Origin: a virus
DNA length: 44,042 bases
Virus record (IMG/VR): IMGVR_UViG_3300009136_000012
Coordinates: 1-44,042 of that record
Reading direction: 5' to 3' (one strand)
Shown here: positions 1-44,042 of the stretch, one piece after another
Position numbering within the stretch: the stretch's first letter is position 1
Layout of the letters: the number at the start of each line of letters is the position of its first letter
Made by a program: the position numbers and the translations under genes
Notes under the pieces: generated by a model
Seen by the model: the letters and a program-made list of their open reading frames with translations, nothing else
The model's database searches: none
Told to the model about the DNA's origin: nothing

Positions 1-115
1 AGTGATATGACGCAAATAATTATCTAAAATTCCAAGCGAGACCATAAAAATACCGAAGGAGAATCCAGTCATTGAATTTTCAAAATAGCCCGCGTTCGCG
101 CTGATCAGTGAGACT
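1..115. repeat. Terminal direct repeat, left copy (circle joint)
   Basis: Bases 1-115 match 43928-44042 base for base except one mismatch (C at 42, T at 43969). A gene starting at 195 on the minus strand continues without a frame break when the two ends are overlapped, which shows that the contig is circular. The single mismatch changes a Val to an Ile codon and may be a read error or population variation. Inference: circular genome or circularly permuted virion DNA, collapsed with a short overlap. Confidence 0.93.
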
Positions 116-8890: not shown

Positions 8891-9115
8891 TTATCTCAAA
8901 ATATTTAGTCTGCTTTGTGCTTTGAGGTTTTTATCGAATGTTTTTAAATCACTACCTTTGAGAATAATATCAACTATTCGGCCTTGCGATAGTTCAGGGT
9001 GAATTCTTTGCAACATATCGATAAATTCACGCGATTCAAAGCTTATTTTTGTTGAAAAATTAACGCGTCGATCAGCGTCTGGCAAGCGAGGTCGCCCCAT
9101 TTTGCGCTCATACAT
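8891..9115 (-). CDS. Ribbon-helix-helix DNA-binding protein
   Basis: The 74-residue protein has a basic arm MYERKMGRPRLPDADRR, then a short strand (VNFSTKIS) and two helices (ESREFIDMLQRIHPEL and QGRIVDIILKG), the RHH (Arc/CopG) layout. RHH dimers bind short direct repeats. Its promoter lies at 9149-9178, and an 8-bp iteron cluster (9256-9319) lies about 100 bp further upstream, so autoregulation or copy control is possible. GGGGACTTATA precedes the ATG. Confidence 0.72.
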   Translation of the reverse strand: MYERKMGRPRLPDADRRVNFSTKISFESREFIDMLQRIHPELSQGRIVDIILKGSDLKTFDKNLKAQSRLNILR

Positions 9116-9255: not shown

Positions 9256-9319
9256 ATATTATGATTATAGGATTCTACGATGCTATCATGGCATGATGCT
9301 AGCATGGCATGATGCTATG
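9256..9319 (-). repeat. 8-bp iteron cluster B
   Basis: Read on the minus strand from 9319, contiguous 8-mers run CATAGCAT, CATGCCAT, GCTAGCAT, CATGCCAT, GATAGCAT, then weaker CGTAGAAT, CCTATAAT, CATAATAT. They share the CAT(N)3AT pattern and 8-bp phase of the array before parA, in opposite orientation. It is a likely binding site of an RHH protein (the local one or the ParG-like one) and may serve in replication, partition or repression. Confidence 0.75.
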
Positions 9320-9356
9320 ATATATTGTGCTTAAATCGATTTATGATACTATAGGC

Positions 9357-9384
9357 GCGCAGTTGGCGTCATATCCAATTGCGC
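9357..9384. repeat. Imperfect inverted repeat (hairpin)
   Basis: GCGCAGTTGG (9357-9366) and CCAATTGCGC (9375-9384) pair in nine of ten positions around an 8-nt loop. It lies in the gap between the small RHH-like gene at 9439 and the iteron cluster. No U-run is adjacent; the function is unknown. The rest of 9320-9438 shows nothing further that I can interpret. Confidence 0.5.
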
Positions 9385-9438
9385 TTAAGGATAGCCTTGA
9401 GACTCTTTAATCGTTGAGCTTAATGGGTTTCGAGGCTT

Positions 9439-9618
9439 TTAAATGCTATTTTTAGCGTCAAATTCGCATTTATCGAGATAAAATTCTAGTGCTTCGCGCG
9501 TAAATTGCTCAAAATTTGGATGGATCCTTTCAATACTTTCAACGATAGATAAATCAATAGAGATACATTTAACAATAGTCGATTCTTTGTTATAACGTTT
9601 ATTTGCAAATTTGCTCAT
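9439..9618 (-). CDS. Small RHH-like protein (59 aa)
   Basis: The frame from ATG 9618 to TAA 9439-9441 encodes 59 residues. STIVKCISIDLSIVESIERI followed by HPNFEQFTREALEFYL fits strand-helix-helix, and the HP turn matches HPEL in the RHH protein at 8891. The two may be distant paralogues. It begins just past the U-tract of the tail-operon terminator, so it needs read-through or its own promoter. GCGAG lies 8 nt before the ATG. Confidence 0.6.
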   Translation of the reverse strand: MSKFANKRYNKESTIVKCISIDLSIVESIERIHPNFEQFTREALEFYLDKCEFDAKNSI

Positions 9619-32528: not shown

Positions 32529-34097
32529 TTAGAATATTGAGCCGTATGCTTCTTCTTGCTTCGGCGTTACAAATGACATTATAAACCCGTCGGCGTGATC
32601 TGGCGAATCAATGCCGCGCGCCTTCATTTCCTTTTTGCCTTCAACTTGAACTTTACCATTTTTATAAAATAATAGTGGAGAGCATAGCTCGCTAATTAAA
32701 ACTTCTAAATGTGCGACATCTGATTTTATGCTGATCAATTCATGTTCTGGATATTTTTTGCCGTTTGTTATTGCTAAGAATGTTTTTCTCAATCGCTCTC
32801 GAACTTCCCACCAACCTTGAGCGCGCGCATTTAAAAAGAAGTCTTTGTTTAACCTTTCTTCTCCTTTTGCGCCTGAAATTATTACATGATCCGGATCGAC
32901 AACACCGCCGCCACTATTCCAACCGGTCACCGGAAAAGGTATTTTCTTGATGTGTTTTATTGCTGTTTTGAAACCTGATCCTACACCTACACTATCGAAT
33001 ATTAATAAATCAGCATTGTGATCGATGCCTGTTTTTGTAGCGTGACCTGCTGAATAATCGTGGTCGCCTTTACAATTCCAACTATCACATAAAAATACTA
33101 TTGACCCTTTTCTGCCTGTTAATGAGTCTTTATCGCCGCCCTCGTCCGATACATCATTTCCGAATTGCGTTATTCCTGTTCCTGTAAATTCTAGTTTTTC
33201 ATGCGCATCAATCGCAGCTCTTACCCATTCAGGACGGATCATGATCCCTTGCACTGCTGATAAATAATCTCGATCAACTTCTTGACTAAATATAGCTAAT
33301 ATCCCTTTATCCTCGGCCGATGCACGTCTTTTGTCATACCATTCTTGAGATTTTCTAGGATCATCACGCCAATCAAAAACAAAATTATCTTGACCCTTAT
33401 TTGATTTAGCGATTTTATGAAATAAGTTAATTCCATTGACTGAGCTAATTAATATTTGCGTATTAGTATTATCACCAAGCGACGCGCTCAGCTTTTCTTG
33501 TTTTTCACAATGCGCGAATTCATCTACAAAATATATTGCCTTTCGACCGCCGCGCCCGATGTTATTGCCCGCTTCGCCTGTGATCGTGTTTCCGTTATCA
33601 TGATTAATTATTTTCATGTATCCAAAATTATAATTATCAGGCAAGAAAACTTTTGGCAATGATCGAATTTTAGATCGTATCTTTTCAAAGATAGAATCGG
33701 GATCGCCTAATCGATCGACTAGCATTTCTTTACGTGAACCCCAACCTATTGAAAAGCCCGGCACGAATAACCAACACCAAACGCTGAACGCCGTTGATAC
33801 TTCTGTGATCCCTGCATCGCGGCATTTTTCAACTGTGCCATCTTTTTTATTGGGGATCCTATCGAGATGTAGCCAATTGACATAATCGACTTGTTTAGGA
33901 AATAAAACGAAAGGTAATGTGCTCGGACGATCATCAACGGCGTTGCGCGGATCATAAGTCACCATCCAATCACTGATAAATGCGACCGGATTATTTTTAT
34001 AATATTCTTTAGCGCAAAGCACCAAATAGGGATCGTCATTGAGCTTATTTAGTCGATCTATTCGCTTTTTGAATTCAGCGACATAATCACTAATCAT
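32529..34097 (-). CDS. terL: Terminase large subunit
   Basis: This 522-residue packaging motor combines an ATPase and a headful or cos nuclease. A deviant Walker A is CRDAGITEVSTAF (92-104), and Walker B is AIYFVDEFAH (187-196, Asp192/Glu193). The nuclease domain has FLCDSWNCKGDHDYSAG, LLIFDSVGVGSGF and the closing SPDHADGF near the C-terminus, supplying the acidic metal ligands. Its start overlaps the small terminase by 8 bp. Confidence 0.93.
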   Translation of the reverse strand: MISDYVAEFKKRIDRLNKLNDDPYLVLCAKEYYKNNPVAFISDWMVTYDPRNAVDDRPSTLPFVLFPKQVDYVNWLHLDRIPNKKDGTVEKCRDAGITEVSTAFSVWCWLFVPGFSIGWGSRKEMLVDRLGDPDSIFEKIRSKIRSLPKVFLPDNYNFGYMKIINHDNGNTITGEAGNNIGRGGRKAIYFVDEFAHCEKQEKLSASLGDNTNTQILISSVNGINLFHKIAKSNKGQDNFVFDWRDDPRKSQEWYDKRRASAEDKGILAIFSQEVDRDYLSAVQGIMIRPEWVRAAIDAHEKLEFTGTGITQFGNDVSDEGGDKDSLTGRKGSIVFLCDSWNCKGDHDYSAGHATKTGIDHNADLLIFDSVGVGSGFKTAIKHIKKIPFPVTGWNSGGGVVDPDHVIISGAKGEERLNKDFFLNARAQGWWEVRERLRKTFLAITNGKKYPEHELISIKSDVAHLEVLISELCSPLLFYKNGKVQVEGKKEMKARGIDSPDHADGFIMSFVTPKQEEAYGSIF

Positions 34098-42000: not shown

Positions 42001-42074
42001 CGCATTATTATAAAATAACCGCATAAAAACAAGCGTTTTTCGGTATAATTCTCAGGTTTGCCAAGACCTAGCGT

Positions 42075-42138
42075 CATATTATCATATTATCATAGCATCA
42101 TAGCATCATATCATCATATCATCATACGATCATATCGT
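42075..42138 (+). repeat. Eight tandem 8-bp iterons upstream of parA (array A)
   Basis: Contiguous 8-mers: CATATTAT twice, CATAGCAT twice, CATATCAT twice, then CATACGAT and CATATCGT. The consensus is CATANNAT in exact 8-bp phase, with the variable bases changing in pairs. The array lies just before TACAAT (42141-42146) and the parA ribosome site. It fits a met-box or omega-type target on which RHH dimers line up, serving as operator and probably as parS-like centromere. Confidence 0.9.
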
Positions 42139-42183: not shown

Positions 42184-42855
42184 ATGAAAATCGTATCACT
42201 GGCAAATCTGAAAGGCGGATCGGGAAAAAGCACTCACGCAATCAATATAGCTGACGGGTTGGGATTGAGAGGGTTAAGGGTCGTTTTATGCGATTTGGAC
42301 GAAGATCAAGAAACAGTCATTGACTGGTCTGAAATCAATGATAATCGTTCGTTCGATATTAAATTAGTTGATCCAGAAAAATTAGGTAATTTTATCGATA
42401 GAAATAAAAACGATTACGATTTTGCAATTTTAGATTGCCCCCCTGCCGCAAACCGAGCGGCGGCTTACGTCGTTAGATATTCAGATCTCGTGATAATGCC
42501 TGTTATGCCGAGTATGGTTGAAGTTTGGGCGTTGCGTCGTCTAAACGATCTAATATTAGATAGACAAGTTATAACCGACGGTTTACCAATTGCGAGAATC
42601 ATGTTGTCTCGATGTCGAAAAAGAACAAAACTATTGCCAAAAGTTATTAACGCATTAAATGATCCTGAGTTGCAATTACCTAGCGTTATGAATAGCGGTA
42701 CAACATTTCGTCAGTCTTACATTCAAACAATTTCAGATGGCGAAACGGTTTATATTAATGATCGTAAAGAATACGGCAATGATATAACGGTTTGCATCGA
42801 ACAAATCGAAGCTATCGTTTCAGAAATATTAGAAATATCAGGTGATCAATCATGA
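42184..42855 (+). CDS. parA: ParA partition ATPase (small, ParF-like)
   Basis: The protein has 223 residues from the ATG at 42184, which follows GGGGATAAC; an earlier in-frame ATG would translate the iterons and is rejected. It has a deviant Walker A LKGGSGKST (9-17), VVLCDLDEDQ (33-42) and Walker B FAILDCPPAA (80-89). There is no N-terminal HTH, so it is a type Ib ParA. It moves plasmid-like genomes over the nucleoid together with an RHH centromere-binding protein encoded 250 bp downstream. It is the start of the only rightward operon. Confidence 0.92.
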   Translation: MKIVSLANLKGGSGKSTHAINIADGLGLRGLRVVLCDLDEDQETVIDWSEINDNRSFDIKLVDPEKLGNFIDRNKNDYDFAILDCPPAANRAAAYVVRYSDLVIMPVMPSMVEVWALRRLNDLILDRQVITDGLPIARIMLSRCRKRTKLLPKVINALNDPELQLPSVMNSGTTFRQSYIQTISDGETVYINDRKEYGNDITVCIEQIEAIVSEILEISGDQS

Positions 42856-43136
42856 AATTAAAAGAAGCGAAATTGATCTGTCAATTAAATGCGATCATTG
42901 AATTACATAAATCTGCGGCAAAAGATCGAGACGCAATTATTAAAGAGCTACAAGAATCAATTGCTATTTTTAAAAAGCAGGCAGTTTTACAAGCTGAAAT
43001 GATTGACGGATTGAAGAAAAACCGCGATCACTTTGAAAAAATATCCATTAAACAAGATGTTTTACTGCAAGATCAAACAAAATTTATAGACTATTTAAAG
43101 GAAAAATACGATGAAAATACCAGCACGTCGCACTAG
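42852..43136 (+). CDS. Coiled-coil protein between parA and the RHH gene
   Basis: The 94-residue protein is almost entirely heptad helix (about 15-90). It overlaps parA by ATGA and the RHH gene by 26 bp, so all three are co-translated. It could be a third partition component or a spacer protein. I know of no standard type Ib cassette with such a gene in the middle. Confidence 0.6.
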   Translation: MKLKEAKLICQLNAIIELHKSAAKDRDAIIKELQESIAIFKKQAVLQAEMIDGLKKNRDHFEKISIKQDVLLQDQTKFIDYLKEKYDENTSTSH

Positions 43137-43374
43137 TCGACAATCTCGCGAGGCTCGAAAGGTTTTAGACGATGAAAATCTAGGTCAATTATCAATTAGA
43201 CTCGATAAGAGTCTAAGACACCAATTTTCATTATCAGTTAATTTTCAGCAAACAAGCATGAACCAAGCTTTAATTAATTTTATAAAGAAATATGTCGGTG
43301 AGCATTATAATTCGGTTCACAAAGGCTGTTCGAATTTAGAGAAACATGCGATACGGAGAGATCGGAATAAATAG
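43111..43374 (+). CDS. ParG-like RHH centromere-binding protein
   Basis: The 87-residue protein has a mobile basic N-tail (ARRTSRQSREARK) that recalls the arginine-bearing tail by which ParG stimulates ParF. Then come the strand LGQLSIRLD and helices SLRHQFSLSVNF and TSMNQALINFIKKYV, an RHH core. It probably binds the 8-bp iterons at 42075 (and perhaps 9256), links them to ParA and represses the operon. Confidence 0.78.
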   Translation: MKIPARRTSRQSREARKVLDDENLGQLSIRLDKSLRHQFSLSVNFQQTSMNQALINFIKKYVGEHYNSVHKGCSNLEKHAIRRDRNK

Positions 43375-43904: not shown

Positions 43905-44042
43905 TTTTTTTCACAAAGCGGCTTTGTAGTGATATGACGCAAATAATTATCTAAAATTCCAAGCGAGATCATAAAAATACCGAAGGAGAATCCAGTCATT
44001 GAATTTTCAAAATAGCCCGCGTTCGCGCTGATCAGTGAGACT
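43901..44042 (-). CDS. Small lysis membrane protein, second partial copy at the joint
   Basis: This is the 3' part of the 73-residue gene described at 1-195, seen again because the window ends overlap. It stops at TGA 43901-43903, in an ATGA overlap with the i-spanin start. It is cut by the end of the window and is not a second gene. Confidence 0.8.
   Translation of the reverse strand, partial: VSLISANAGYFENSMTGFSFGIFMISLGILDNYLRHITTKPLCEKK
43928..44042. repeat. Terminal direct repeat, right copy (circle joint)
   Basis: This copy is identical to 1-115 except T at 43969 in place of C at 42. See the left copy: it marks the circular joint of the contig. Confidence 0.93.

Follow-up and report, generated by a model that had tools for sequence, protein, structure and literature searches.

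Organisation of the par locus

The window, i.e., the whole stretch of 44,042 nucleotides that was analysed, carries close to its right end a run of eight contiguous octamers, hereafter array 1, followed by a small operon of three genes on the same strand:

42058–42085, plus strand: best match to a promoter consensus ahead of the par operon (TTGCCA, 16 nt, TATCAT; 10 of 12 positions)
42075–42138, plus strand: array 1, eight contiguous octamers, putative operator/centromere (parH/parS-like)
42184–42855, plus strand: parA (parF-like), encoding P0001, a Walker-type ATPase of 223 aa
42852–43136, plus strand: ORF of 94 aa (P0003), predicted coiled coil, between parA and the ribbon-helix-helix (RHH) gene
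43111–43374, plus strand: parG-like gene, encoding P0002, an RHH protein of 87 aa with a basic N-terminal tail

P0001 matched the PHROG family of ParA-like partition proteins (1.5e-31), and ParF of TP228 (4dzz) was among its two top matches in the PDB (E = 1.1e-19). The score against the NCBIfam model ParA_partition was 147.5 bits, under the equivalog cut-off of 180. The Walker and signature lysines are conserved, K10, K15, D37, and D84 being among the conserved residues, and the protein begins at the Walker motif, without an N-terminal HTH, its size fitting that of small ParA proteins (about 190–230 aa). A cassette of type Ia, like those of P1, F and N15 Sop, would have a large ParA with an HTH domain and an HTH-type ParB, which fits neither the ParA of 223 aa, with the Walker motif at its start, nor the RHH partner.

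The parG-like gene lies downstream of parA in the same operon, with the P0003 ORF intervening. P0002 had no match among curated families; its score with a profile built on the ParG-like proteins of other loci was 14.8 bits, and 200 shuffled sequences gave at most 5.8. Its AlphaFold model presents a core with pLDDT of ~97 and the strand-helix-helix layout of RHH proteins, whereas residues 1–25, basic (R6, R7, R10, R13, R16), were modelled with lower confidence; this stretch may correspond to the flexible tail whose arginine finger, in cassettes of type Ib, stimulates the ATPase activity of ParA. The structural matches were RHH proteins, namely CopASO, AmrZ, ParG (1p94), CopG, and Arc; the best Foldseek E-value was weak (0.18) because the domain is small, but the matches agree with one another, and the best has an rmsd of 0.8 Å and a TM-score of 0.88 of the target. 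Profile and model together point to P0002 as a diverged ParG, a weak homologue of the family, and by analogy it would act as centromere-binding protein and repressor. The ORF encoding P0003 overlaps both the stop codon of parA and the P0002 gene, and translational coupling of parA, P0003, and P0002 is likely. Most relatives carry parG directly after parA, whereas P0003 is interposed in the window.

The octamer array upstream of parA

Seven of the eight units of array 1 match CATANNAT exactly, and the eighth (CATATCGT) bears one mismatch. The coordinates, the 8-bp phase, and the order of the variable dinucleotides given in an earlier note on this DNA are borne out at 42075–42138, where the units follow one another as CATATTAT CATATTAT CATAGCAT CATAGCAT CATATCAT CATATCAT CATACGAT CATATCGT. 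No other tandem repeat in the window scores as high as array 1, for which TRF gave a score of 84 with 7.9 copies at period 8. The autocorrelation at period 8 upstream of parA reached a score of 42, compared with a shuffle maximum of 12.8, and a two-unit pattern with at most two mismatches was matched 28 times, as opposed to the 8.9 ± 3.1 expected, a count that none of 100 shuffles attained.

The three identical pairs of units are all adjacent (P = 0.024 given the units). This order, AABBCC, corresponds to duplications of single 8-bp units; a 16-bp duplication would leave ABAB, and the recent 16-bp slippage previously proposed as the origin of the array is hence not supported. The paired units fit recent duplications of single units.

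Array 1 ends 45 bp before the start of parA, and the −10 hexamer of the best promoter match for the operon falls inside units 1 and 2. This promoter is a consensus match alone, in a region where the count of such matches is not above chance (3, with 1.8 expected).

A second array 11 kb away

When the whole window was scanned with a weight matrix derived from array 1, one other site only was found, with a score of 48.1, where 60 random genomes gave no more than 6.9. This site, array 2, is flanked by two small ORFs on the minus strand and lies 11.0 kb from array 1 on the circle:

8891–9115, minus strand: ORF of 74 aa, downstream of array 2, RHH-like by eye (unproven)
9256–9319, minus strand: array 2, a run of eight octamers without gaps, in which the array 1 motif recurs in diverged form
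9352–9458, plus strand: putative small RNA, with a 10-bp 5' hairpin and a 13-bp hairpin followed by TTTT
9439–9618, minus strand: ORF of 59 aa, on the far side of array 2, possibly (marginally) RHH

The units of array 2 are CATAGCAT CATGCCAT GCTAGCAT CATGCCAT GATAGCAT CGTAGAAT CCTATAAT CATAATAT, in perfect 8-bp phase. Given the motif, phase, and unit number shared by the two arrays, the same protein most likely binds both. The structure model of the 74-aa ORF was of low confidence, and the ParG-profile signal was absent from it.

The segment at 9352–9458 is predicted to fold with z = −4.6, a value reached by none of 200 shuffles, and matched no Rfam family. It has no plus-strand gene upstream and hence nothing to terminate, which makes a small RNA, rather than a terminator, the simplest reading of this putative element. 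As no Rep is recognised in this phage, array 2 and the putative small RNA may possibly make up an origin of the RNA-based kind or a site of copy control.

Genome context

The window corresponds to an entire IMG/VR virus record with the gene content of a tailed phage, including terminase, portal, head, tape-measure, and lysis genes; an SSB, a NinB-like gene, a DNA methylase, and a YbcO-like nuclease are also encoded. The larger genes lie on the minus strand, the par operon excepted. A direct repeat of 115 bp is present at both ends (1–115, plus strand, matched at 43928–44042 with one mismatch), and the genome is therefore circular or terminally redundant, with a length of ~43.93 kb. Exact matching overlooks this terminal repeat owing to the single mismatch.

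Family searches gave no match anywhere in the window for tyrosine phage integrase or protelomerase, nor for the three initiator/helicase families searched (Rep3_N, RPA, and DnaB_C). Families such as these do not span all initiators or integrases, and their absence is in keeping with the look expected of a plasmid prophage without a known Rep.

No close relatives were retrieved from IMG/VR through ParA, TerL, or P0002, and the DNA of the par region had no match among phage records. The Vibrio phages NF and 13VT501A have the terminase in common with the window phage (62%), and an annotated parA is absent in both. The earlier note had described array 1 well, leaving out array 2, the coiled-coil gene, and the circular phage context.

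Octamer arrays in other genomes

The best period between 5 and 13 bp was determined in the 250 bp upstream of parA at 103 small-parA loci from phages, plasmids, IMG/VR, and genome contigs. A period of 8 bp was the best at 55 of the 103, a set that includes near-identical loci and whose cases are not independent; in a control region 300–550 bp downstream, it led at 8 of about 100. Arrays with this period upstream of parA are thus a signature of the ParF/ParG class, with differing motifs: ACTC boxes occur in plasmids of Pleionea, Thiothrix, and Marinobacter, seven exact copies of GAGTACAT in pS121-4 of Aeromonas, and TGTACATT-like boxes in phages of the VP882 type. Because of this prevalence of the 8-bp period, an operator/centromere of the parFG/parH kind is the best reading of array 1.

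The motif by itself is not diagnostic, since three CATANNAT units, used as a search pattern in IMG/VR, were matched in 34 contigs, and a ParF-like parA was absent from the examined stretch of every one. Nine viral contigs (L026, L034, L040, L042, L043, L046, L050, L052, and L057) present a run of the form CCTACAAT/TCTACAAT (CATATAAT)n CATATCAC/T, varying in unit number, and likewise lack a ParF-like parA in the stretch examined. In contig L049, an ORF judged by eye to be ParM/actin-like (320 aa, 1842–2804) precedes a minus-strand run of three CATANNAT units (2884–2907). Contig L037 bears a run of fifteen octamers (127–246), in blocks of CATGCGAT / CATAGGAT; a hypothetical gene follows after ~270 bp, and a terminase-like ORF lies beyond it.

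For 18 genomes, a matrix was built from the array upstream of parA and the whole record was then scanned with it. Secondary arrays numbered 42 at a spacing of 8 bp, and 5, 6, 2, 13, and 1 at spacings of 9, 10, 11, 12, and 13; column-shuffled matrices yielded 10.7. The excess at spacing 12 is possibly a half-phase (8 + 4) effect. Removal of two close kin of phiHAP-1 (G006 and G008) left 34 arrays at spacing 8, as opposed to 4, 5, 2, 11, and 1 at the other spacings. Most of the secondary arrays at spacing 8 were mostly non-coding (26 of 42, with 5 expected). The richest case among the genomes scanned was a 37-kb phage genome (G019, L103 record, IMGVR_UViG_2657245607_000004) with eight secondary GAAC-type arrays besides the one at parA, all in non-coding DNA.

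In five of the genomes (phiHAP-1, VP882, G003, G006, and G012), an array lies at, or just before, the start of a large rep gene, and in these rep-bearing relatives the rep-adjacent motif is common to the array upstream of parA. The dispersed arrays of the two named phages lie at the following positions:

phiHAP-1 (L226): 32948, 23790, 37262, 39135; the one at about 32948–32988 abuts the start of the rep gene
VP882 (L222): 32783, 36369, 22698, 35733, 157; the one at about 32783–32823 abuts the start of the rep gene

The dispersed pattern was computed from the sequences, and binding of RHH proteins at such arrays is putative.

Comparison with characterised partition systems

The closest precedent for the window phage is the mycobacteriophage RedRock. 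Its two parS loci, parS-L and parS-R, consist of eight direct repeats of 8 bp each and are both recognised by its ParB; for replication, RedRock relies on a non-coding RNA, as do its relatives that lack RepA (PMC7157519). Used as a positive control with the same method, RedRock yielded both of its 8-bp arrays, and its ParB scored 24.8 bits against the ParG profile. The window phage would share with RedRock the state of a plasmid prophage without integrase, and both have a small ParA and two eight-unit 8-bp arrays, one of them just before parA. In RedRock an array also lies near a non-coding RNA in the absence of RepA, to which the putative small RNA beside array 2 and the lack of Rep3_N, RPA, and DnaB_C matches may correspond. 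The motifs differ, being TCGAGTNN-like in RedRock and CATANNAT in the window; both RedRock arrays are found within 1 kb on the flanks of parAB, while array 2 is 11 kb off; no ORF separates parA and parB in RedRock, while P0003 occupies this place in the window; and RedRock ParA shares only 29% identity with P0001, over about half its length.

In TP228, ParG binds repeat boxes upstream of parF that serve both partition and repression (PMC7308502). The window resembles its parFG-parH system in the ParF-like ATPase, the RHH ParG-like partner, and the boxes upstream of parA. The TP228 boxes are degenerate tetramers with AT-rich spacers, whereas the octamers of the window are near-perfect and of other sequence; furthermore, TP228 lacks an additional ORF between the partition genes, and a distant second array, present in the window, was not described for it in the literature searched. 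Eight imperfect repeats also occur upstream of parF in pMET1 (PMC2262945). The delta-omega-parS system of pSM19035, where an RHH protein occupies 7–10 contiguous short repeats at par and copy-control promoters and controls copy number (PMC9499535), shows how a single RHH protein could attend to several arrays. However, pSM19035 is a conventional plasmid with 7-bp boxes (WATCACW) in mixed orientation, and the heptad period of the omega family was found in neither array of the window, where the period is 8.

VP882, VHML, and phiHAP-1, whose ParAs share 31–36% identity with that of the window, likewise combine 8-bp phased boxes upstream of parA with dispersed arrays of the same motif, although they are linear prophages with a protelomerase and a large rep gene, both unfound in the window, and their motif is TGTACATT-like. 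N15, too, combines the plasmid-prophage state proposed for the window phage with several separate centromere sites, putative ones in the window and four in N15 (IR1–4; PMC7205306); its sop system is of type Ia, with an F-like SopB acting on inverted repeats, as opposed to an RHH protein and direct octamers.

Interpretation and alternative explanations

What the sequences show directly is two arrays with a motif in common, the order of the genes, the relatedness to ParF and ParG, and the recurrence of the design in relatives. The reading that accounts best for them, to which a probability of about 0.8 is assigned, is that a type Ib cassette maintains the phage as a plasmid, that array 1 acts as both operator and centromere, and that the protein binding array 1 most likely binds array 2 as well. 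The combined operator/centromere for the ParG-like protein, already suggested in the earlier note, gains support from the ParF-like ParA, the ParG-like RHH protein, and the 8-bp arrays of the class. By precedent of ParF and ParG, binding, repression, and segregation would fall to P0002 and ParA. The cassette, comprising parA, the coiled-coil gene, and the parG-like gene, would maintain the phage as a plasmid; RHH dimers would bind array 1 cooperatively and side by side, one per 8-bp box, and the coated array would cover the parA promoter, leading to autorepression. The N-terminal tails of the RHH protein would be presented to ParA-ATP on the nucleoid, so that the phage-plasmid is moved and copies reach both daughter cells. 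Array 2 may be a further centromere, an operator of the adjoining small genes or small RNA, or both.

Array 2 could instead belong to the 74-aa or the 59-aa neighbour, its likeness to array 1 reflecting common descent or shared specificity. It does sit between two small ORFs that are possibly RHH, is more degenerate than array 1, and has a 16-bp, partly palindromic pattern that array 1 lacks. Nonetheless, the same core octamer, CATAGCAT, the same phase, and the same unit number recur in both arrays, and neither the profile search nor the structure model speaks for the 74-aa ORF; a separate binding protein is therefore considered somewhat unlikely. Another option is that the arrays are iterons, i.e., sites at an origin to which a replication initiator binds, and have no part in partition. 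Short direct repeats are indeed typical of replication origins, and some relatives have an array immediately next to rep; set against this, Rep3_N, RPA, and DnaB_C are without a match in the window, 8-bp arrays precede parA across the class, and the motif at rep in the relatives is that of their parA-upstream array, which leaves iterons very improbable.

That array 1 is a transcriptional operator only, with the functional centromere elsewhere, for instance at array 2, is improbable, if less so than an iteron function. Its overlap with the best parA promoter match and the existence of two arrays in the window would agree with such a division, as would TP228, where ParG binds an operator and, next to it, a separate parH site (PMC7308502). 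On the other hand, arrays of this type are centromeres in pSM19035 and RedRock (PMC9499535, PMC7157519), and eight contiguous boxes exceed the four that suffice for full activation of ParA in pSM19035 (PMC9499535). A neutral microsatellite, arisen by replication slippage and devoid of binding function, would explain the identical adjacent units, which suggest recent 8-bp duplications, and the octamer runs without parA in other viral contigs; yet the position of array 1 before parA, the class-wide 8-bp phase, and the retention of phase among the diverged units of array 2, which points to selection, make it exceedingly unlikely.

Implications

The mechanism proposed for the type Ib cassette is of a known kind; peculiar to this phage are the motif, the additional coiled-coil gene, and the 11-kb separation of the arrays. 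As a clean and regular putative octamer centromere with a new recognition sequence, array 1 helps the study of how the specificity of RHH proteins changes, although array 2 and the survey weigh more than array 1 alone.

A broader and rather doubtful proposal is that the RHH partition protein acts as a genome-wide regulator through scattered 8-bp arrays, including those at the start of rep, wiring together partition, replication, and prophage control; in the window, array 2 and the small RNA would then constitute an RNA-based origin or copy-control site under the partition protein. The link between partition and replication is drawn from the position of arrays in relatives, and no description of it was found in the literature searched, most subscription journals lying outside the scope of the search. 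The presence of an array at the start of rep in VP882 and phiHAP-1 makes this putative link testable in cultured phages.
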